The translations under genes and the position numbers were made by a program. Positions 6,596 through 16,953 of a stretch of 64,000 bases of DNA are shown here, piece by piece (position 1 is the first letter of the stretch; every line of letters starts with the position of its first letter). The DNA comes from a bacterium (lineage in GTDB: Bacteria > Vulcanimicrobiota > Vulcanimicrobiia > Vulcanimicrobiales > Vulcanimicrobiaceae): assembly GCA_021832345.1 (NCBI GenBank), contig JAKBKY010000006.1, forward strand, positions 62,001 to 126,000. Reading direction: 5' to 3'. The notes below the pieces were generated by a model. The model searched no databases, was not told the DNA's origin, and saw only the letters and a list, made by a program, of their open reading frames with translations.

Positions 6596-7447
6596 ATGAT
6601 GCTCCCTCTCGAAGACGCGTTTGCTGACATCCTGCGTAAGGCAATGAGCGGGAACGGGGTTCCCGTGCACCAGCTCGCGCAGCGAACCGAGATCCCGGGT
6701 ACCGAGATCGAGCGCTGGTTGGACGGCCGAGACTGCCCGAACGACGGCCAAGCCCGAGTCATCGCTCCGGTGCTTCGCCTCGATCCCGGCAAACTCGCCG
6801 ATGCAGCGGCTGCACGATGGTATCCACCCGAGATCGAGCTACCTGAAGTGCGCCATCATCCGCAAGACCCGCACCCCAGCAACGGCTATGTCTTCTTTCT
6901 CGAAGGCGGCAGGCGCGCCGCCCTCGTCGACCCAGCCGGGATCCCGGCGAACTTGCTGCGCATGCTGCGAGCCGGCGCCTACCACTTGCAGTACATTCTG
7001 ATCACGCACAAGCACGCCGATCACTGTGACGCGACCGCCGAGGTCGCCGCAGCCTTTCCGCAGGCCCGCATCGTCATGCATCCGCTCGATGCGCACGCCA
7101 TCGGTCCGCTCGCCGGCCAAGCACTGCATCTGCCCGACGACGAGGAGCTCCCGTTCGGCGAGGGCGTCGGCATCCGCATGCTCCACACTCCCGGTCACAC
7201 CGACGGTTCCTCGTGCTACCTGCTTCACGCCACGGTCTTCTCGGGTGACACGCTCTTTGCGGGCAGCATCGGCGGCGCATACGGCGATGCAAGCACCTAC
7301 TCGGATATTCTCAACTCCATTCGCTCGAAGCTCTTTACGCTGCCCGACGACACGGTGGTGATGCCGGGACACGGGCCACCGACGACCGTCGCCCTCGAAC
7401 GCGATCACAACCCGTTCTTCCCAGGCGATCACGCTCGCAGCTTATAA
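6596..7447 (+). CDS. HTH-metallo-beta-lactamase fold fusion hydrolase
   Basis: 283 residues. The first 75 (GVPVHQLAQRTEIPGTEIERWLDGRDCPNDGQARVI and on) look like an XRE-type helix-turn-helix. From about 85 on there is a glyoxalase-II-like metallo-beta-lactamase domain with THKHADHCD (His138, His140, Asp142, His143), PGHTDGS, FSGDTLF and MPGHGPPT, so all metal ligands are present. The ATG at 6596 (or 6599) is chosen because it begins the HTH domain; an in-frame extension to 6473 overlaps trxB. The 3' end overlaps the ABC permease gene by 19 bp convergently. It could be a thiolester hydrolase or persulfide dioxygenase relative with self-regulation (inference). Confidence 0.8.
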   Translation: MMLPLEDAFADILRKAMSGNGVPVHQLAQRTEIPGTEIERWLDGRDCPNDGQARVIAPVLRLDPGKLADAAAARWYPPEIELPEVRHHPQDPHPSNGYVFFLEGGRRAALVDPAGIPANLLRMLRAGAYHLQYILITHKHADHCDATAEVAAAFPQARIVMHPLDAHAIGPLAGQALHLPDDEELPFGEGVGIRMLHTPGHTDGSSCYLLHATVFSGDTLFAGSIGGAYGDASTYSDILNSIRSKLFTLPDDTVVMPGHGPPTTVALERDHNPFFPGDHARSL

Positions 7448-8199
7448 CCCGTCGCGACCATGCGCAAGGCCGTGCCTAGGGCGATGAGCGCAAGCGCTCC
7501 AATGGCGGCCAGCGACACGCCGATCGGCAGATAGCTCTGCCCGGTGTAACTCGCACGAAAGGCGTCGATCGTGTAAAAGATGGGGTTGAAGAGTTCCAGG
7601 TTGCGCAAGAACGGCGGCAGCATGGTTGCCGCGGTAAAGACACCGCCTACAAAGACCAGCGGCGTAATGATAAAGGTCGTCAGCACCGCTAGATGATCGA
7701 ACTTCTCTGCCATAAGCCCGAAGATGATGCCAAGAGCAGAGAAGAGTACGCAGACAACGACCAAGACGCCCGCATAGAGCAGCCAGTTCTGCGGCAGAGT
7801 GTGGACCAGGATGAATCCCAACACGGTAATGATCCCGGCGATCGCCAGCGCTCTCGCCAGACTCCCCAGCACGAATCCGGCGACGATTTCGGTTGCGGAG
7901 AGCGGCGCGATGAGCAGCTCCTGAATGGAGTTCATGAAGCGCCCCTGGAAGATCGAGCTCGAGGTCTCTCCGTATGACGCGTCGATGACCTGCAGCATGA
8001 TCAGCCCGGGGATCAAGAACTGTGCGTAGGTCACGCCCTGAACCGATTGGATACGGCTTCCGATGGCCACGCCGAAGATAAAGACATAGAGCAACGTGGT
8101 GATGATCGGCGGCCAGATGACCTGATTGATCACCTTGAGCGTTCGAATGATCTCGCGCTTGACGACCGTCCACAGCCCGACGTAGTTCACGGTGTCCAT
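7429..8199 (-). CDS. ABC-2 type transporter permease
   Basis: 256-residue integral membrane protein with about six hydrophobic helices and the ABC-2 family look (NQVIWPPIITTLLYVFIFGVAIG at the start, EIVAGFVLGSLAR, LFNPIFYTIDAFRASYTG near the end). It is the membrane half of an exporter with the ATPase upstream. The ATG at 8199 overlaps the ATPase stop by one base (TGATG), and this start begins the conserved amphipathic N-terminus, so longer in-frame extensions into the ATPase gene are rejected. The substrate is unknown; the family includes drug, polysaccharide and lipid exporters. Confidence 0.9.
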   Translation of the reverse strand: MDTVNYVGLWTVVKREIIRTLKVINQVIWPPIITTLLYVFIFGVAIGSRIQSVQGVTYAQFLIPGLIMLQVIDASYGETSSSIFQGRFMNSIQELLIAPLSATEIVAGFVLGSLARALAIAGIITVLGFILVHTLPQNWLLYAGVLVVVCVLFSALGIIFGLMAEKFDHLAVLTTFIITPLVFVGGVFTAATMLPPFLRNLELFNPIFYTIDAFRASYTGQSYLPIGVSLAAIGALALIALGTALRMVATGYKLRA

Positions 8200-9122
8200 C
8201 ACGACCGCGTCAGCTCCAAGAAGACGTCCTGCAAGGTCGCTCGTTTGAAATCCACGGCCTCGACGATAAAGCCGGCAGCTTCCAGGGCCGCCAGCGCCGA
8301 GGCCACCTGCGATGCCGTCAAACCGTCGACCTGAACGAGCGTATCGCCAACCTCGAAGCGGGCGCCGCGCAGCACGGGGGTTGCAGGAAGCTCCCGAATC
8401 GGCCGATCGAGCCGCACCGCAAGCGTTGTCTCTCGGTGTCCATCTAAGAGCCCCTGGGTCGACTGCTGTGCGACGATCTTCCCGCCTCGAACGATGGCGA
8501 TGTTTCGGCAGAGCGCTTCGGCCTCTTCGAGGTAATGGGTGGTGAGAAAGATCGTGATGCCCTGTGCGTTGAGGACGCGTAACATCTCCCACAGCTCTAG
8601 CCGCAACTCCACGTCGACGCCTGCCGTAGGTTCATCTAAAATCAGTAGCTTCGGCTCGTGGATCAATGCCCGGGCAAGCATCAAGCGCCTCTTCTGCCCT
8701 CCTGAGATCTTCGTGTATTCGACGTGCGCCTTCGCAGTGAGGTCGAAACGCTCCAGCAACTCATCGACCCGCCGGCACACCACGCGCGGACGCAAACCGA
8801 AGTACCCAGCCTGGAAGAGCAGCACGTCGCGAATCGAAAGATAGCGGTCGAAATTAAACTCTTGGGGCGCCAAGCCGACCAACCTCCGGGCGACGCGCCA
8901 CTGCCGATCGATATCGTAGCCGAAGATCTGAATCGATCCTGCCGTCTTACGAAGCAGACCGACGATCGCGCCGATCGTCGTCGTCTTGCCCGCGCCGTTG
9001 GGCCCCAAGAAGCCGAAGAAGTCCCCGGCCTCAACCCGCAGTGAGATGCCGTCCACCGCCGTCAACTCGCCGTATCGCTTATAGAGTCCATCTATAGCGA
9101 TCGCCGGGTTCGCGAGAGTCAC
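8199..9122 (-). CDS. ABC transporter ATP-binding protein (YadG/CcmA-like)
   Basis: 307-residue ABC ATPase: Walker A GPNGAGKTT near residue 40, Q-loop APQEF, signature ISGGQKRR, Walker B LLILDEPTAGVD and switch His in TTHYLEEAE. A C-terminal extension (about 230-307) is typical of ABC-2 partner ATPases. It is coupled to the permease by a one-base overlap and to the upstream phosphoesterase by GTGA (9122-9119). The GTG start is supported by that overlap. Confidence 0.93.
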   Translation of the reverse strand: MTLANPAIAIDGLYKRYGELTAVDGISLRVEAGDFFGFLGPNGAGKTTTIGAIVGLLRKTAGSIQIFGYDIDRQWRVARRLVGLAPQEFNFDRYLSIRDVLLFQAGYFGLRPRVVCRRVDELLERFDLTAKAHVEYTKISGGQKRRLMLARALIHEPKLLILDEPTAGVDVELRLELWEMLRVLNAQGITIFLTTHYLEEAEALCRNIAIVRGGKIVAQQSTQGLLDGHRETTLAVRLDRPIRELPATPVLRGARFEVGDTLVQVDGLTASQVASALAALEAAGFIVEAVDFKRATLQDVFLELTRS

Positions 9123-9844
9123 GGAATGCTTGCCTTAAGACCCTTGTAACGATGCCGCCGCAACGTCGCCACCAAGTCCACCGCCCCGGGAATCCCGCAA
9201 TCGGCCAATTGCGTTGCCACCCGTTTGACGTCGAACGCCACGCGCCGATGCTTGACCTCCCATCCGCCGCTCCGTTCGGTGAGAATGGCATAACCGGCGC
9301 GCGCATCGCCGTCTTTGGGCAGGCCCGCAGAGGCCGCATTCACAAGCAATCTGCCGCGCCACAAGCGTGCGTAGGGAAGATGCAGATGGCCAAAAGCGAT
9401 GACCGTTGCGGGCTCCCGGCCGATCGACGCCTCCAAAGCCGCATCGTCGGCGTCCGGCCACATATGCAACTCGTCGCTGACGGGCGAGGCATGGACCACC
9501 AGCAACTGATTCTCAACGGAACCGAAGCGCAGCGATGCCGGCAGATCGCGCAGCCATGCCAGCCACTTCTCGCCAAGGTCGCGACGCGTCCATTCCATGC
9601 GCGTCCGCGCGACCCCGAGCGGTTCGTAGCTGACGTCGGCCAGGTAGCGATCGGTGTTCCCGCGGACGCAACGCGCGCCGACATCGGCCAATCGCTGCAA
9701 GACCTTCTTCGGCTTGGGGCCATCCATGCAAAGGTCGCCGGCCGCAACGATCACATCGGCACCGCCTTGCGCCTCAAGATCGGCAAGGCATGCGTCTAAG
9801 CCGACGAGATTCCCATGAATATCCGCGAGTAACGCAATGCGCAC
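9119..9844 (-). CDS. Calcineurin-like metallophosphoesterase (YfcE/MJ0936-type)
   Basis: 241 residues: metal ligands DIHGN (Asp8, His10), GDLCMDGP, GNTDRY, HASP and FGHLH give the full two-metal site of small phosphodiesterases. The GTG at 9844 is chosen because AAGGAG sits six bases upstream and the protein then begins directly with the first beta-strand (RIALLADIHGN); the longer in-frame extension is spurious. The stop overlaps the ABC ATPase start. The residues after about 190 (WEVKHRRVAFDVKRV) match the usual C-terminal strand of this group. The natural substrate is unknown. Confidence 0.88.
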   Translation of the reverse strand: MRIALLADIHGNLVGLDACLADLEAQGGADVIVAAGDLCMDGPKPKKVLQRLADVGARCVRGNTDRYLADVSYEPLGVARTRMEWTRRDLGEKWLAWLRDLPASLRFGSVENQLLVVHASPVSDELHMWPDADDAALEASIGREPATVIAFGHLHLPYARLWRGRLLVNAASAGLPKDGDARAGYAILTERSGGWEVKHRRVAFDVKRVATQLADCGIPGAVDLVATLRRHRYKGLKASIP

Positions 9845-9863: not shown

Positions 9864-10703
9864 CTAGCTGCGCCTGGAGGCAAGCGCCAAGAGCGCCGGC
9901 ACGAGACCGGCCTTATCGAACTCGTAGAGATCGATCGAGTCGACGGCGATCCCGGCTTTACGCAGCTTGGCAAGCGACGTGCGATATCGTATGTCGGCTA
10001 GAACATGGCGTTCTCCCAACAGGAGCGCGCCGGCCGCAAACTCCTCTCCTCGATCGAGTTCGATCCGCCTCAAGCGCGCAAACGCGGCGGGATCCACTTT
10101 GTGCGCAGCGATGACGACCGTATCGCGAGCGACCACGCCGGCGACGCAGCGTAGCGACGGTACGCCCGGTGCCAACCGAGCCTCGACGACATCGTATCCA
10201 CGCGCTCGGGCGGCCTGCGCGAAGCCCGCACGTCCGAGGTCGTTGCCGCGTGAACCGACGCCGATCACGGCAAGCCCCGGGAGGAGCAGGACGTCGCCTC
10301 CGTCGAGCAAGCCGGGCGCTTCGATCCCACCGGCACGCGGTATGCCCAGGTGTGCGATCTCAGATTCAAGACTCTCGGCCTCGGCCCGGCGAGCCATGCT
10401 CGTTTGGCGCATCATGAAGAGGCCGTCATCGAAGGTCACCGCAACATCGCCGATGGCGACCTCTCGAGCGTCGTCTCCGCTCGCTTCGAGGACCGTCACC
10501 TGCACGCCGAAGTACTGCAAGGTCTTCACCAGCGTCGCGTGCGCTTCGAGCGCCCGCGAATAGATCGGCGAGGGCTCGCCGAGGAGCGGCGCGGCGTCAA
10601 CAAGGGCCGCGCCGGGCTTGCGCAGGACGGCGGCGCGCAGCCGGCCCGTCGATGTGACGCCCTTCGCAGGGTGGTCGAGTCTCTGAGTTGTCATGCTCGT
10701 CAT
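9864..10703 (-). CDS. DDAH/arginine deiminase-fold protein lacking catalytic Cys and His
   Basis: 279-residue pentein-fold protein resembling dimethylarginine dimethylaminohydrolase: FDDGLFMMRQ (substrate Asp region), LLDGGDVL (GGD at 135-137), the GSRGND loop and C-terminal YEFDKAG. Active enzymes have His-Leu in the strand corresponding to PSLRCVAG (Ser183 here) and a nucleophilic Cys shortly after E-F-x-K-A-G. Here the end reads AGLVPALLALASRRS with no Cys, and the only Cys is 186. It is thus probably catalytically inert or uses other chemistry. Its ATG overlaps the stop of the upstream YncE/phosphoesterase gene (ATGA), so the two are co-translated. Confidence 0.75.
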   Translation of the reverse strand: MTSMTTQRLDHPAKGVTSTGRLRAAVLRKPGAALVDAAPLLGEPSPIYSRALEAHATLVKTLQYFGVQVTVLEASGDDAREVAIGDVAVTFDDGLFMMRQTSMARRAEAESLESEIAHLGIPRAGGIEAPGLLDGGDVLLLPGLAVIGVGSRGNDLGRAGFAQAARARGYDVVEARLAPGVPSLRCVAGVVARDTVVIAAHKVDPAAFARLRRIELDRGEEFAAGALLLGERHVLADIRYRTSLAKLRKAGIAVDSIDLYEFDKAGLVPALLALASRRS

Positions 10704-13045
10704 CGTTTCGCGTTATACGGCGCGTCATCCGCCGTGGTTGTGAAGCAATCGGCCATATCGGTTGCCAGCAGATCGCCGAGTGAGAGCGGCGGCAGTCCTA
10801 ACAGCTCTTCGACGGTCTTCACCTCGCTTGCGGTAGAAAGATGCACCATCGAAACGTAGCCGCGCCGCGCATACGGCGAGACGACTAATGCGTACGTGCG
10901 ATGCGCGTTGATGCGATCCGGCCCTGCGCCCGGATCTGCCGGCATCACAAAGATCACCGTGTGCGACCAACTGGCCGCGTGGCTCAAGAATGCGACCATC
11001 CGCCCGACGGCTTGATCCGCTTGGGCCGGATCGCGACCCGGAATCCACGCATAGGCGTACTCCGGAACGTGGCCCAAGCGCTCCAGGCGACCGTAATCTT
11101 GGATGAAGGCCTTGGCGCGAGCGATATCTCCTGCTCCGGTGCCGGTATTAGGATAGTTCACATCCACCGCGCCGCGTAGGGCCAGCGGTGCCGGGACATC
11201 GTAGGTGTAGCGTCCGCGCGTGTATCCGGAGAGATTCAAGAACTCGCCGTAATCGCGATAACTGCGCCGCGCCCGCGCCATCGCATCAAACAGGCTCCCC
11301 GCACGCGAGGCATCTTCCGGATCTTCGCCGGCCTTACCCAAGGGTTTGCCGGCACCCAACAGCGGCAGCGTTCGGTCGAGAAACGGCGTGGCGATGCCGG
11401 AGGTTGCGATCTGATGGCCGCTGGGTGCTGCATCAGCGTCGGAGTAGAAGTTCTTGGCGATGGTAAACATGTTGGCCAGCGCATGGAGATTCGGCGTGGC
11501 CGAGACAACCGCGTCAGGGCCGAAAACTTCATCGTAGGTCGCCTGTCCGACGACCAGCGTCACAACGTGCGTGATCACCGAACTCGGGGTCCCCGATCCC
11601 AACTGCGGCATCAGGGCGTTGGGCGCACGAACACCCACTACCCGGGCGTAGCGAAGCGCCGAGAGCGTCGTGCGCTGCAATGGGAGATGCCCGAGGCGAA
11701 TGCGCTCAAGGGTTGCCCAGTTGACGACGCTCGACGCATGCCTCGCCCCGGGCCCCTGACCTAGCCCCTTCGCATTGAGGACGTAGAGAAAACGGCCGTC
11801 GGGCGAGACCGCGAGCGCACTTGGAGACCATCCGGTTGGGATCAAGCCTAAGCGATGGAGGCGCACCGGGTTGCGTGAATCGAGAACCGCGACGGCGTTC
11901 ATCCCCGCCAAAGCGACGTAGAGCAGCTTGCCGTCATGATTGACGGCTAGCGCATCAGGCTGCGTACCGTAGGGCGCCAGCGGATAGAGCCGCAGGTCGA
12001 GACCGTCGGCCACATGCGGCGAGCCTTCCAGTGAGACCACCGCGATGCGGTCGACGTTGGTCATGGTAACGTAGGCAAAACGCCCGTCGTGCACGGGGAG
12101 AATCGCCGAAGGGTGCGCTCCACCCACCAGGCCGATGCCGTCGGGGATGACGTCCATGCGCACGAAGGCGCCGGGATCGCTCTGCGGACGCGATCGACCG
12201 TCGAGGGAGAGCAGGGCCAGCGACGAGGTGAGGTATGCATCGCCCGTGGGCGTGGAGAAGGCGGGCAGGCTCGCCGGTCGCGCCAGCACGGAGTAGCGCA
12301 TCGAGCCCTCGTTGGTGACGAGAACACGGTTCCCGGCAACCGCTATTCCGGAGGGAAAGTAGCCGACCGGAGCGGTTCTCACCAGGCGCCGTTTCGCCAC
12401 GTCGATCGTCGCTACGGTGTCGCCAAGGGTATCGACGACGTAGGCATAACGACCGCCGGCTCCCAGCGTCATGCTGCCTGGAAAAGCGTGACCGCGATCG
12501 GCGTACGAGCGATCGGTAGGAGCGGGAATGCGAATGGCGGCCTCGGGAGTCAAGCGCCCAGCCGGGGAGAGCGTGAAGACACGGATCAGGTTCGCCGGGC
12601 CGTCGGAGGCGAGGACGATGGTTCGTGACGGGTCGGCGGGATCGGCCAGAGCGACCACCCCCACGTAAAAATCTACGCCCGGCTTATGCCAGACGCTCAC
12701 CACTCGCATACTCGCCAGGTTCACGACGACAAGCGAAGGAACGGCGACGACGCCGGGGACGAGCCGTGAGACGGCCGGATTGCCCGGTACCCCTTCGTTG
12801 CTCACGATTGCATAGCGCCCGTTGGGGGTCATGGCTACGCCAAAGGCATTGACCCCGACGACCACGTTGCGCCCAACGGGCGCGACGATCCGGCCACTCG
12901 GCAGAATCGCATCATAGGGGCGAGCTCGATGGGGGTTGCCGGCGGGGCGATCACCTGCCGGTGCCGTGAAAGCGTACCGCGGCGGCGGCCCAGCACCCAA
13001 CAGAACGGCGACCGAGGCCGCCGCCAAGACTCTCCAAAACGTCAT
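10700..13045 (-). CDS. YncE-like beta-propeller fused to degenerate phosphoesterase domain, exported
   Basis: 781 residues with a signal peptide (1-26). A seven-bladed propeller of YncE/YVTN type follows (repeats such as GRYAYVVDTLGDTVATIDV, GKLLYVALAGMNAVAVLDS, GRFLYVLNAKGLG), then from about residue 485 a domain aligned with the acid-phosphatase/phospholipase C family. The family motif ENRTYDQVFG reads GQATYDEVFG (about 500), the SADGH region is APSGH, the LPNDHT motif reads IPGRDP, and VEDD near 700 is MPAD. Most metal ligands are therefore gone while AHR and SPYARRG are kept. Location is probably extracytoplasmic. It is coupled to the DDAH-like gene by ATGA. Confidence 0.82.
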   Translation of the reverse strand: MTFWRVLAAASVAVLLGAGPPPRYAFTAPAGDRPAGNPHRARPYDAILPSGRIVAPVGRNVVVGVNAFGVAMTPNGRYAIVSNEGVPGNPAVSRLVPGVVAVPSLVVVNLASMRVVSVWHKPGVDFYVGVVALADPADPSRTIVLASDGPANLIRVFTLSPAGRLTPEAAIRIPAPTDRSYADRGHAFPGSMTLGAGGRYAYVVDTLGDTVATIDVAKRRLVRTAPVGYFPSGIAVAGNRVLVTNEGSMRYSVLARPASLPAFSTPTGDAYLTSSLALLSLDGRSRPQSDPGAFVRMDVIPDGIGLVGGAHPSAILPVHDGRFAYVTMTNVDRIAVVSLEGSPHVADGLDLRLYPLAPYGTQPDALAVNHDGKLLYVALAGMNAVAVLDSRNPVRLHRLGLIPTGWSPSALAVSPDGRFLYVLNAKGLGQGPGARHASSVVNWATLERIRLGHLPLQRTTLSALRYARVVGVRAPNALMPQLGSGTPSSVITHVVTLVVGQATYDEVFGPDAVVSATPNLHALANMFTIAKNFYSDADAAPSGHQIATSGIATPFLDRTLPLLGAGKPLGKAGEDPEDASRAGSLFDAMARARRSYRDYGEFLNLSGYTRGRYTYDVPAPLALRGAVDVNYPNTGTGAGDIARAKAFIQDYGRLERLGHVPEYAYAWIPGRDPAQADQAVGRMVAFLSHAASWSHTVIFVMPADPGAGPDRINAHRTYALVVSPYARRGYVSMVHLSTASEVKTVEELLGLPPLSLGDLLATDMADCFTTTADDAPYNAKR

Positions 13046-13121: not shown

Positions 13122-13814
13122 TTACTTGCGATCGAGACGATACCCGATGCCGCGCACACTGGCGATCTCCAGTGGCGCATCCATCTCGGCCAGCTTCTTG
13201 CGAATGGCGGCGACGTGGACATCCACGACGCGGGTCGGCACCCCGGAGGTATCGTTCCACACCTCAGCAAGGATCTGGGCACGGGTGAGCAATCGGCCTT
13301 CGGACTCCCCGAGGAACCAGAGCAGACGAAACTCGAGGGCCGTCAGCACGGCACTGCGATCCCCGCTCGCGAGGACATGCAGATCGCGGTCGAGATGGGC
13401 GCTTCCGAGTGGAAGGAGGTCGGGGATATCATGTTGCTGGCGCAGTTTCGCCCGTCGCCGGAGGAACGAGGCCACGCGCGCCACGAGCTCGTTTCCCGAA
13501 AAAGGTTTGGTGATATAGTCGTCCGCACCGAGCCCAAGCCCAAGCAAGATATCCTGCTCGCGGGTATGGCCGCTGACCATGAGCACGAACGAATCGTTGG
13601 AGTTCGAGAGAGACGTACAGACGTCGAGGCCCGACATATCGGGCAGCCCGATGTCGAGAATAACGACATCGGGTCGATAACCATCGGCTAGCTCTAACCC
13701 CTCTGCGCCGCTACCGGTAACGCGGACCTCATGCCCCGCCTTTTCGAGTACCGTGCGCTCGAGTAACGCGACATCCTCATCGTCTTCGATGACCAGGATA
13801 CGAGCCTGAGCCAT
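13122..13814 (-). CDS. OmpR/PhoB-family response regulator
   Basis: 230 residues: receiver domain (acidic pair about 11-12, phospho-acceptor Asp54 in VVILDIGLPD, Lys in YITKPF) followed by a winged-helix DNA-binding domain (LTALEFRLLWFLGESEGRLLTRAQIL ... VDVHVAAIRKKL ... VRGIGYRL). No histidine kinase gene is adjacent, so it is an orphan here; the kinase gene at 59041-61689 is far away. The start has AGGTGTCATG context. Confidence 0.93.
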   Translation of the reverse strand: MAQARILVIEDDEDVALLERTVLEKAGHEVRVTGSGAEGLELADGYRPDVVILDIGLPDMSGLDVCTSLSNSNDSFVLMVSGHTREQDILLGLGLGADDYITKPFSGNELVARVASFLRRRAKLRQQHDIPDLLPLGSAHLDRDLHVLASGDRSAVLTALEFRLLWFLGESEGRLLTRAQILAEVWNDTSGVPTRVVDVHVAAIRKKLAEMDAPLEIASVRGIGYRLDRK

Positions 13815-13826
13815 GACACCTCCAAG

Positions 13827-15272
13827 TTAGGCGTTTGCCGGAACGTCCTCGCCCTCGCCCTTTACCATTGCGCGCCGTGCGATGCCTTCGTCCACCGCAG
13901 CCGCTGCAACCGCTTTGGCCACCACGTCGACGACCCTGGGGTCAAAGACGCTCGGCACGATATACTCGGCGTTCCGTTCCTCGTCGGAGATGACGGCCGC
14001 GATCGCTGCCGCAGCGGCTAGCTTCATCTTCTCGGAGATGCGGCTCGCCCGTACGTCGAGCGCCCCGCGAAAGATGCCGGGAAAGGCCAACAGGTTATTG
14101 ACTTGGTTGGGGAAGTCCGAACGACCTGTGGCGATCACCCCGACGTACGGTGCCGCCACATCGGGCATGATCTCGGGAGTAGGATTGGCCATGGCAAAAA
14201 CGATGGGATCGCGAGCCATTCGGCCCAGGTCTTCGGGCTGGAGAATCCCGGGCGCTGAGACCCCGATGAAAACATCGGCCCCGCTCAAGACATCCACGAG
14301 CGTTCCGCGGCGATTCTCGCGATTGGCATTCTCCGCCAACCAGCGCCAATGCGGATTCTCGTAGCGATCGGTTCGATTCAAGGCTCCCGCGCGATCCACG
14401 GGGATGACGTCGCGGACCCCGGCACCCAGCAGCATCTTCATCGTCGCAGTGCCCGCAGCACCGCTACCGGCGACGACCACCGTCAGGTCGCCCAGAGCCT
14501 TGCCGACGACCTTGGCGGCGTTGATCAACGCCGCCAAGATGACGATGGCGGTGCCATGCTGATCGTCGTGCATCACGGGGATGTCGAGCCGCTCGATCAG
14601 CTTTCGCTCAACTTCAAAGCAGCGAGGCGCCGAGATATCCTCCAGGTTGATCCCCCCGAAAACCGGCGCGATGCGAACGACGGTCTCGACGATCTCATCG
14701 ACATCCTTCGTGTCGAGGCAGATCGGAAAGGCGTCGATGTTGGCGAACTGCTTGAAGAGCATAGCCTTGCCTTCCATGACCGGCAACGCTCCCAGCGGAC
14801 CGATGTCGCCAAGACCCAACACGGCGGTCCCATCCGAGACGATCGCCACGCTGTTGCGCTTGATGGTCAGTTGAAACGCCTTGCTCGGGTCGGCAGCGAT
14901 CGCCATTGAGACGCGCGCGACTCCGGGCGTATACACCTTGGAGAGATCTTGGCGATTGGTGATCGGCATCTTTGGCTCGATGCGAATCTTTCCGCCCAAA
15001 TGCGCCAAAAAGGTCGCGTCGGAGGCGCTGATGACGCGCGCATGCTCGACCGATTCCACGGCTCGACGCACGGCATCTCCGATCGCGTCCGAGCTTACGT
15101 TTACCGTGAGATCGCGAACCGTGCGCGTCTTGGTTACCGATCGCATGTCGACGGCCGCGATCACGCCGCCGGCCTCACCGATAGCAGTGGCCAATTGCGC
15201 GAAGGCTCCTGCCGTATTGGGGGTTTCTACCCGCATGACGAGGGTGAAACTGATCGCTACTTGCGACATCAT
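13827..15272 (-). CDS. NAD(P)-dependent malic enzyme with N-terminal ACT domain
   Basis: 481 residues: an N-terminal ACT-like regulatory domain (about 1-80, SFTLVMRVETPNTAGAFAQLATAIGEAGG) precedes the malic enzyme body, with LSKVYTPGVARVSMAI, SDGTAVLGLGDIGPLGALPVMEGKAMLFKQFANIDAFPICL, the metal/Asp region FEVERKL...MHDDQHGTAIV and the NAD-binding motif VVAGSGAAGTATMKML. It decarboxylates malate to pyruvate and presumably is allosterically controlled through ACT. The ATG at 15272 (or 15269) is preceded by GGGAG. The N-terminal extension in the same frame overlaps the dacB-like gene and is not counted. Confidence 0.92.
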   Translation of the reverse strand: MMSQVAISFTLVMRVETPNTAGAFAQLATAIGEAGGVIAAVDMRSVTKTRTVRDLTVNVSSDAIGDAVRRAVESVEHARVISASDATFLAHLGGKIRIEPKMPITNRQDLSKVYTPGVARVSMAIAADPSKAFQLTIKRNSVAIVSDGTAVLGLGDIGPLGALPVMEGKAMLFKQFANIDAFPICLDTKDVDEIVETVVRIAPVFGGINLEDISAPRCFEVERKLIERLDIPVMHDDQHGTAIVILAALINAAKVVGKALGDLTVVVAGSGAAGTATMKMLLGAGVRDVIPVDRAGALNRTDRYENPHWRWLAENANRENRRGTLVDVLSGADVFIGVSAPGILQPEDLGRMARDPIVFAMANPTPEIMPDVAAPYVGVIATGRSDFPNQVNNLLAFPGIFRGALDVRASRISEKMKLAAAAAIAAVISDEERNAEYIVPSVFDPRVVDVVAKAVAAAAVDEGIARRAMVKGEGEDVPANA

Positions 15273-15399
15273 AACTCTCCCTTTAGAACGAATTTGACTT
15301 CCGTTTACAACCACTCGGCCACTCGAAACGGTGCTCTCTTCGACAGGATAGACGATTTCGCTGCTTTCGACAGCAGAGGGCATCTCGATAGATTTTCCA

Positions 15400-16953
15400 T
15401 TACATGGCGGCGATACGATCGACGGCAGCAATCATAGCGTCGTCGGGATCCGCGGGTGAATCGTTGACCGAGAAGGCGAAGATCACCCTCCCGTGGTGAG
15501 CGGTCCAAACGTAACCCGCCAACGCAGAGACGCCGTCCAGGTGGCCCGTCTTGGCGCGCACCCGGCCAAGCGCCGTGGTAAAGTCGTAGGAGGTTAAGGT
15601 TCCTTGCTTGCCGCCTTTCGGAAGCAGTCGCGCAAGCGCCGGATTTTTCAGCAAAATCGTCGCCAGCGTGATCGCCGCGATCCGATCCACGTGAGCCAAG
15701 CCGCTGCCGTCCACCAAGTGCAGCTCCGGGGTCGGAACGCCGGTACGCGCCAGGAAATGGCGTTCTACTCGCAGCCCGTGCGCGTCATCCGGAATGCCGT
15801 AGCGTACACCTCCCAGCGTTCGCATCAACTGTTCGGCATAATGGTTGTCGGAGACGATCAGCATGTGGTGCTCGAGCATCCAGCTCGGAGCCGACGCATG
15901 ATCCCAGAGTACGACGCTATCCAGCGGTGCCGAACCAACCCCGGGTGGTGCATCCGTCGAGACCCCGCGAGAGGCCAGTAACGACGCCAAAACATCGCCG
16001 GCGTAGTGCGCCACACCGTGTATCGGCAACGAGTACTTCTGAACGATCCCGGGCCGAATGTTTCCCGAAACGACAAAATGGTTGAGCGCCGTGCCCATCC
16101 CTACGATGACATTAGAAGGGATGCCGCCCTGCGTTACGACCTCGTCGTGTACGACCACGTCGTCTGCAGGCGGAGCCGACCAAACATGAGCGGGCGCGCC
16201 TGGGTTCGTCCCGGCCACAAGAATGTGCAGGTTGTCCTCGTCGAGCGATATGCCGCTGGTGGGAGGCTGATAATCGTCCTCGTCGTCGTTCTGATTCCAG
16301 AGCGGATTCACTCCAGGACCGGCGATACTGTGCGCGTCGACCGCTACGCCGCCATCCACTCGCCGCAACCCCCGGCGCACCAGATCGCTTACGCCGCGGG
16401 TGAGATCGCGATAGGTCAACGACGGATCGCCTGAACCGATGAGCCACAAGTCACCCGCAAGACTTCCGTCGGCCCGCGGGGGCGCCGACGCCGCCAGCAG
16501 CGTGTGGAAGCGATACTCGGGTCCGAGCACTGCCAGAGCCGTGCTCGCGACGATCAACTTCTGTGTCGAGGCCGGCGCTGACCCACGGCGCGCCCGATCG
16601 TGAAAGATCACGCGTCCGCGTTGTGAGAGGACCACTAAACTGTAACGCCGCGCGCCGTCGATGGACGCGGCGAAGCCGGCACGCAGTCCGCGATCCAACC
16701 GCGCGACCTGCGCACGCGTCCAGCGCGGCGCAGGAGCGAGCTGCGGCACGGCAGGCGGTGCCGGTACCGCAGCCGAGACCACCTTGACAGGTGCGGATAC
16801 GTCGGGGAGGCGCCCAGACGAATGTACGACACGCGCCAACACGAATGCAAACAGCAGCAAGAGCGGGAACCCAACGACGAGCAGACGCCTACGTCTGCGT
16901 CGCCGAACTCGCCAAACGCTCGATCTGCTCTTGGAGTTTGCGTTGTTCTTCAC
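15400..16953 (-). CDS. dacB: D-alanyl-D-alanine carboxypeptidase/endopeptidase (PBP4, S13 family)
   Basis: About 517 residues: basic N-terminus (RRRRRRR) followed by one membrane anchor, then a penicillin-binding domain with SxxK (STQK in SAPASTQKL), SxN (SDN in IVSDNHYAEQLM) and KTG (AKTGHLDGVSALAGY), plus the large inserted domains typical of S13 enzymes. It acts on peptidoglycan outside the membrane. The start is uncertain: GTG 16953 (weak AGG four bases upstream) or ATG 16968; both overlap the end of the M1 peptidase gene by 65-80 bp. Confidence 0.9.
   Translation of the reverse strand: MKNNANSKSRSSVWRVRRRRRRRLLVVGFPLLLLFAFVLARVVHSSGRLPDVSAPVKVVSAAVPAPPAVPQLAPAPRWTRAQVARLDRGLRAGFAASIDGARRYSLVVLSQRGRVIFHDRARRGSAPASTQKLIVASTALAVLGPEYRFHTLLAASAPPRADGSLAGDLWLIGSGDPSLTYRDLTRGVSDLVRRGLRRVDGGVAVDAHSIAGPGVNPLWNQNDDEDDYQPPTSGISLDEDNLHILVAGTNPGAPAHVWSAPPADDVVVHDEVVTQGGIPSNVIVGMGTALNHFVVSGNIRPGIVQKYSLPIHGVAHYAGDVLASLLASRGVSTDAPPGVGSAPLDSVVLWDHASAPSWMLEHHMLIVSDNHYAEQLMRTLGGVRYGIPDDAHGLRVERHFLARTGVPTPELHLVDGSGLAHVDRIAAITLATILLKNPALARLLPKGGKQGTLTSYDFTTALGRVRAKTGHLDGVSALAGYVWTAHHGRVIFAFSVNDSPADPDDAMIAAVDRIAAM

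Follow-up and report, generated by a model that had tools for sequence, protein, structure and literature searches.

Why should a bacterium keep two recognisable enzyme folds side by side when catalytic residues are missing from both? The question is raised by two genes in a genome of the family Vulcanimicrobiaceae (assembly GCA_021832345.1, 2.34 Mb), which lie in a stretch of 64,000 nucleotides from contig JAKBKY010000006.1 (positions 62,001 to 126,000), here called the window. The upstream gene, Y, encodes a YncE-like β-propeller with a degenerate phosphoesterase domain, and the downstream gene, D, encodes a protein with the fold of DDAH (dimethylargininase). A preliminary description had proposed that both are pseudoenzymes, that their lack of chemistry is selected, and that they form a functional unit with one member cytosolic and the other exported. 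The observation itself is confirmed, in that both open reading frames are present as described, they overlap by ATGA, and catalytic residues are missing from each. The interpretation survives in part: the catalytic losses, the linkage and the selection stand, but the pair cannot be regarded as self-contained, and the losses are not shared throughout.

The factual part of our answer, which we hold with great confidence, is that D belongs to a clade under purifying selection that has lost the DDAH catalytic cysteine in both sampled families of its order and the histidine in one of them, that its gene lies within a conserved block, that Y has both intact and dead copies, and that a C-terminal tail is absent from the dead ones. 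The condition of D and Y is neither chance nor local decay, since neither gene contains an internal stop, their codon-position GC resembles that of the neighbouring genes, and matches to a profile of D occur in 97 of the 99 same-family genomes.

Loss of the catalytic site in D

D matches two NCBIfam dimethylargininase models with E-values of 1.7e-21 and 1.3e-19, far under their curated cut-offs (77 against 340 bits, and 71 against 450 bits). The nearest sequence in the PDB is DDAH of P. aeruginosa (E 2e-14). DDAH is also the nearest solved structure by fold: the AlphaFold2 model of D has a pLDDT of 92 and superimposes on it (1h70) with a Z score of 33.8 and a root-mean-square deviation (rmsd) of 2.0 Å over 253 residues, at 23% identity. 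In this predicted structure the pentein fold spans the full length of the protein.

The catalytic positions were read from an alignment of 60 same-family rows, four same-order rows and eight homologues from outside the clade, with the numbering of Cys249 and His162 checked against PDB titles. Of these eight, three are paralogues found within genomes of the family, three come from the same class and two from the same phylum. In the window, a leucine and a serine (L271 and S183) take their places. Cys249 is absent from 60/60 same-family and 4/4 same-order rows, and no cysteine lies within four columns of the site in any of the 64. The histidine is likewise absent from all 60 same-family rows, and present in all four same-order rows. 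Both residues are kept in the eight outside homologues and in 7/7 further homologues from the phylum and beyond, as read from the alignment, which makes 15/15 in total. A further 26 loci in named records, judged non-duplicate, have neither residue at those columns. The catalytic loss in D is thus shared by its relatives, as the preliminary description expected, with the cysteine absent from every orthologue examined (60 + 4 rows and 26 loci). D is an inherited pseudoenzyme in which, by parsimony, the cysteine was lost first, in the ancestor of the order, and the histidine later.

The profile of D also matches 4/4 same-order genomes. Among the 97 same-family matches, two are fragments cut off by a contig end, and the reading of catalytic residues covers the aligned rows and loci. 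The two genomes with no match are G013, in which Y ends at a contig end, and G133, which is 68% complete. A scan of named sequence records with the D alignment recovered 64 loci, and the same scan with a single D sequence found no relative. Of these loci, 54 are labelled Eremiobacterota, Eremiobacteria, Vulcanimicrobiota or WPS-2, eight are labelled only ‘bacterium’, one UBP12 and one Rhodospirillales. The Rhodospirillales-labelled record (L177, CAJCIN010000072.1) contains both genes and is identical to part of G015, a genome of the same family; its label is therefore probably wrong. Judged from these sequences, the D clade appears only in Eremiobacterota, a restriction that applies within this sample, as the scan rested on one peptide pattern. 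Four genomes from outside the phylum also have a homologue (L205, L206, L207 and L209), and each of these keeps the histidine and the cysteine. The top-scoring homologues outside the order, the arginine deiminase/DDAH-like L102 and L205, have a similar C-terminal pattern ending in arginine and, unlike D, keep the histidine and the cysteine of a GGPTC motif. Three same-family genomes (G043, G042 and G009) carry elsewhere a second DDAH with both residues intact (L103, L107 and L108); the genome of the window has no second DDAH match besides D.

The substrate residues of DDAH, which we take to be D60, E65, D66, R85 and R132, give a mixed picture in same-family D: D66 is kept in 54/60 rows, R85 in 59/60 and R132 in 45/60, corresponding to D86, R105 and R152 in the window, while D60 and E65 are lost from all 60. 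An aspartate occupies the DDAH E/D114 position in 55/60 rows. Other residues are fixed in the clade: all 64 rows have R239 and G266, neither of which occurs in any of the eight outside homologues (residue 239 is glycine there), while E43 is invariant in the 64 rows and found in one of the eight. The invariance of R239 and G266 within the clade, and their absence outside it, imply that new constraints arose in D.

It might be argued that D is a re-tooled enzyme, carrying out a different reaction with other residues. The new invariant arginine at 239, the invariant E43 and the persistence of most of the pocket aspartates and arginines would fit such a protein. However, the Cys249 column holds 11 different residues across the 60 rows of the family (M 22, S 17, L 7, Q 4 and others) and the His162 column S, R, A, C or P, with no alternative nucleophile conserved at these columns, and we regard a new activity as improbable.

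The two states of Y

The propeller of Y is closest to E. coli YncE (3vh0; Z 35.7, rmsd 3.1 Å, 316 residues aligned). Its C-terminal domain matches the Pfam Phosphoesterase family PF04185 by sequence, at 24.8 bits against a cut-off of 23, and the domain is matched in 45/58 Y members at E 0.001. In the fold of its propeller and the sequence of its C-terminal domain, Y resembles known proteins that join a YncE propeller to a phosphoesterase domain. At its N-terminus, inspection by eye shows a hydrophobic stretch resembling a signal peptide, from which Y is probably exported; none was seen, by eye, in D.

The active site was scored at eight positions, all of them identical across five intact paralogues (E, N, S, H, H, D, D, H) and presumably metal ligands and the nucleophile, as in phosphatases of the AcpA type. 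The scoring covered 59 same-family and four same-order copies. Y of the window keeps two of the eight residues. In the family, the full set of eight is present in 18/59 copies, another copy has seven and one unread residue, and 40 have zero to six, one of these (L083) being a fragment; the four same-order copies keep one residue each. The preliminary description had expected the same losses in relatives, and for Y this is not the case: there has been repeated, independent inactivation.

On a tree of D plus propeller (58 rows), the intact copies are scattered, and forcing them together costs 963 log-likelihood units (approximately unbiased test, p 4e-79). The unordered minimum is seven changes of state on this tree and six on a tree of the C-terminal domain. 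If regain is disallowed, the script counts 12 losses, or about 11 when two that split the outgroup are counted as one. Given this scatter, and because the return of eight identical residues is unlikely, the sequences indicate that Y has been inactivated several times independently in different lineages. Both trees were quick, with many weak forks and long-branch warnings (L059, L048, L061 group). Some dead lineages group together in the domain tree (L052 with L074; L065, L090, L056 and L082), which lowers the count.

Two other accounts of the losses were considered. Transfer of a single dead domain was rejected as a general explanation, because the C-terminal-domain tree built without the active-site columns leaves dead copies of several lineages among intact relatives. 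Redundancy was also rejected as the cause in the window: many relatives have a Y paralogue (30–37% identity), but the genome of the window has a single Y match. The paralogues read from same-family genomes (L103, L112 and L113) are all intact. The state of Y shows no significant link to the presence of a MocR gene in the cluster, and nothing was seen, by eye only, against genome size.

A further difference accompanies the active site. Beyond the point at which Y of the window ends, all 17 intact copies in the tree continue for 72–80 residues and all 41 dead copies for 0–18. In phylogenetically independent pairs the association is 7:0 (p 0.0156). Since the tail follows the split between intact and dead even in these pairs, it is tied to the active state. 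Compared with its intact orthologues, Y of the window is therefore without a tail of about 75 residues and without six of eight active-site residues.

Selection was measured as the ratio of nonsynonymous to synonymous rates (dN/dS) in 15 hand-chosen within-genus pairs of relatives, 12 of which have a dead Y; the nearest relatives of the window are only about 60% identical to it in D, and the figures are those of the relatives. The ratio is 0.03–0.25 for D and 0.06–0.26 for whole Y, with the propeller reaching 0.28. For Y residues 490–770, which cover the C-terminal domain, it is 0.03–0.22, with dead pairs at 0.05–0.22 and the three intact pairs at 0.03, 0.08 and 0.10. Branches are mostly longer for dead domains than for intact ones. 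Constraint on dead Y domains is thus relaxed, but far from gone. The suggested purifying selection is borne out by ratios well below 1 in all 15 pairs, including those for the dead C-terminal domain.

These values bear on the simplest alternative, that D and Y are pseudogenes decaying in this genome alone. Catalytic residues are indeed missing, and the branch leading to the window is long (0.66 changes per column). Against this, the losses in D are shared by its orthologues, the frames are open, and dN/dS among relatives is 0.03–0.26, so that local decay is hardly credible. Unlinked and catalytically intact relatives, which the preliminary description had named as the sign of local decay, did not turn up in the case of D; copies of Y that are both linked and intact are common.

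The conserved gene block

The two genes belong to a longer block on one strand (Table 1), which in the order of transcription runs malic enzyme, response regulator, Y, D, ABC ATPase and ABC-2 permease, with a MocR-type regulator before Y in part of the loci and, usually, a calcineurin-like metallophosphoesterase (MPE) after D.

Table 1 Features of the block in the window, with positions counted from the first nucleotide of the window
Feature	Position	Strand	Remarks
ABC-2 type membrane permease (PF01061)	7429..8199	minus	
ABC transporter ATPase	8199..9122	minus	4-bp overlap with MPE
Calcineurin-like MPE	9119..9844	minus	19 bp after D; motifs intact by eye
D	9864..10703	minus	Catalytically dead DDAH-fold (pentein) protein, 279 aa
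Codon of D L271	9891..9893	minus	DDAH catalytic Cys249 position; alignment-derived
Codon of D S183	10155..10157	minus	DDAH catalytic His162 position; alignment-derived
ATGA overlap, Y stop / D start	10700..10703	minus	Read from sequence
Y	10700..13045	minus	YncE-like β-propeller and degenerate Phosphoesterase (PF04185) domain, 781 aa
Codons of Y G500-Q501	11543..11548	minus	E-N positions in intact relatives; alignment-derived
Response regulator, C-terminal DNA-binding domain	13122..13814	minus	Upstream of Y
Malic enzyme	13827..15431	minus	Upstream end of block; ACT-domain match weak, below cut-off

Across 64 loci, D is present in 64, Y in 62, the ATPase in 61, and the MPE and permease in 56 each; the malic enzyme is found in 50, the response regulator in 48 and MocR in 35, with some missing neighbours being due to contig ends. 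When contig ends are excluded, D is followed through to the ATPase in 61/63 loci and to the MPE in 56/63, Y is linked to the response regulator in 47/54, and the response regulator to the malic enzyme in 45/45. The permease is followed by an MBL gene in 37 of 38 testable loci. At the other end the order fades, the malic enzyme keeping the same upstream neighbour in only 11/19 testable cases. None of the four same-order loci has the MPE.

In 62/64 loci Y precedes D on the same strand, and in 15 of these 62 the two genes share an NTGA overlap. In seven loci (L041, L046, L074, L075, L078, L090 and L097) the gap is 0.5–2.9 kb, and the inserted genes vary; by eye, they include a zinc alcohol dehydrogenase, a serine protease, and DoxX-like and Uma2-like genes. 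The two loci that have D but no Y, both from the same family, place D beside the ATPase, with MocR directly before D in L058 and the malic enzyme directly before it in L070. Elsewhere in these genomes (91% and 77% complete) there are only weaker Y matches, the best having E-values of 2.5e-21 and 1.2e-32 respectively. The MocR gene, which is not in the window, lies upstream of Y (of D in L058) in its 35 loci, including three same-order loci; the example in L044 (8321-9862, minus strand), the only one whose domains were checked, has a GntR domain and an aminotransferase fold.

The preliminary description had taken the pair as a functional unit and proposed, as a check, that it should recur in other genomes with the same losses. 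The recurrence is clear from the 62 loci, but the same losses hold for the cysteine of D and not for Y. Nor does the pair stand apart: genes for a response regulator and an ABC-2 exporter share its conserved block, and two loci have retained D in the absence of Y.

Conserved order need not mean functional coupling: D and Y could be independent genes in a slowly rearranging region. The order is indeed conserved over the whole block, D survives without Y, and the state of Y changes repeatedly while that of D does not. However, the same order is kept across two families in spite of only 28–30% identity to D of the window, the NTGA overlap recurs, the order fades upstream of the malic enzyme, and no such block was found in the stretches read around the malic enzyme in three same-class genomes. 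We consider synteny without coupling distinctly unlikely. It is worth adding that in five same-class genomes (G065 contig 11, G067 contig 89, G069 contig 7, G071 contig 25 and G074 contig 55) a Y paralogue lies on the malic enzyme contig, some 20–25 kb away, and the three of these genomes that were read have a gene for an ABC ATPase no more than about 6 kb from the paralogue. The proximity to the malic enzyme may be either chance or an old linkage.

A possible role for D and Y

On the basis of these observations, we suggest that D serves the ABC-2 exporter as a cytosolic subunit for binding or scaffolding, without catalysis; the tie is proposed because the exporter genes stay beside D when Y or the MPE is lost. 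In the same family, D may hold a small ligand through the retained residues D86, R105 and R152 (window numbering). Y would be the exported partner, which would meet the exported product outside the cytoplasm and either act on it or simply bind it; for lineages such as that of the window, we suggest binding alone. This putative mechanism, with D acting on the exporter or its ligand and Y on the exported product, is tentative, and we would not call it likely. Facts and mechanism together give what we consider the best explanation, although as a whole it falls somewhat short of being probable. More specifically, D could be a cytosolic sensor that gates the exporter while holding an amidino or carboxylate ligand, with Y having switched to a pseudoenzyme perhaps ten times, dropping the same tail each time, since binding and not chemistry was needed. 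This version is rather unlikely.

Several observations weigh against the proposal. D60 and E65 are gone from all 60 rows of the same family, and D66 and R132 from the four of the same order, which makes a single ligand across the whole order doubtful. Gene order is conserved across the whole region, so that adjacency singles out neither the D–Y pair nor D and the exporter, and two loci (L101, same-order, and L054, same-family) have D with no ATPase at the expected place. In addition, D and Y should reside in separate compartments, for which reason direct contact between them is unlikely.

The main alternative is that D is purely a protein scaffold with no small-molecule ligand, and the exporter a mere neighbour. 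Such a scaffold exists in IF6, a factor of similar fold. The closest parallel is RESC5 of T. brucei (8dpk, 8fnc), which has the DDAH fold with both the cysteine and the histidine replaced, as in same-family D; the model of D superimposes on it with Z 25.2 and rmsd 2.9 Å over 252 residues, compared with Z 33.8 for DDAH. According to PMC9980740, alanine and proline replace the cysteine and histidine of RESC5, several binding residues are kept, and no binding of citrulline or dimethylarginine was observed by thermal shift; the abstract says ‘does bind’, evidently a slip against the paper's own text. A scaffold would also account for the new constraints at R239 and G266. On the other side, the DDAH contacts D66 and R85 are kept in 54/60 and 59/60 same-family rows. 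We regard the pure scaffold as a reasonable but doubtful alternative to the exporter-linked subunit.

D can thus be set beside two known proteins. With DDAH it shares the pentein fold and, in the same family, D66, R85 and mostly the acid at 114 and R132; it differs in lacking the catalytic cysteine and histidine, D60 and E65, and in falling under the NCBIfam cut-offs. RESC5 differs from the bacterial protein in being part of a eukaryotic RNA-editing complex. It is named a DDAH pseudoenzyme also in PMC12936278, and clear RESC5 proteins are reported only in kinetoplastids in PMC9980740. We infer that D and RESC5 arose independently. In the literature searched (open-licence PMC papers), there is no description of this D/Y system, and RESC5 of trypanosomes is the only DDAH-fold pseudoenzyme found.

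Pseudoenzymes are well known, also with the DDAH fold; what is new here is the place, in bacteria, and an unusually clear record of repeated loss. D would be a bacterial DDAH-fold pseudoenzyme, carried by almost every genome sampled from one family. Pseudoenzymes are often single cases, whereas here one clade provides a series, in which D is dead throughout and the order of loss can be resolved, first the cysteine and then the histidine, and in which sister lineages show Y in one state or the other, the tail tracking the active state. With such a series it becomes possible to ask what is gained in exchange for a catalytic site.

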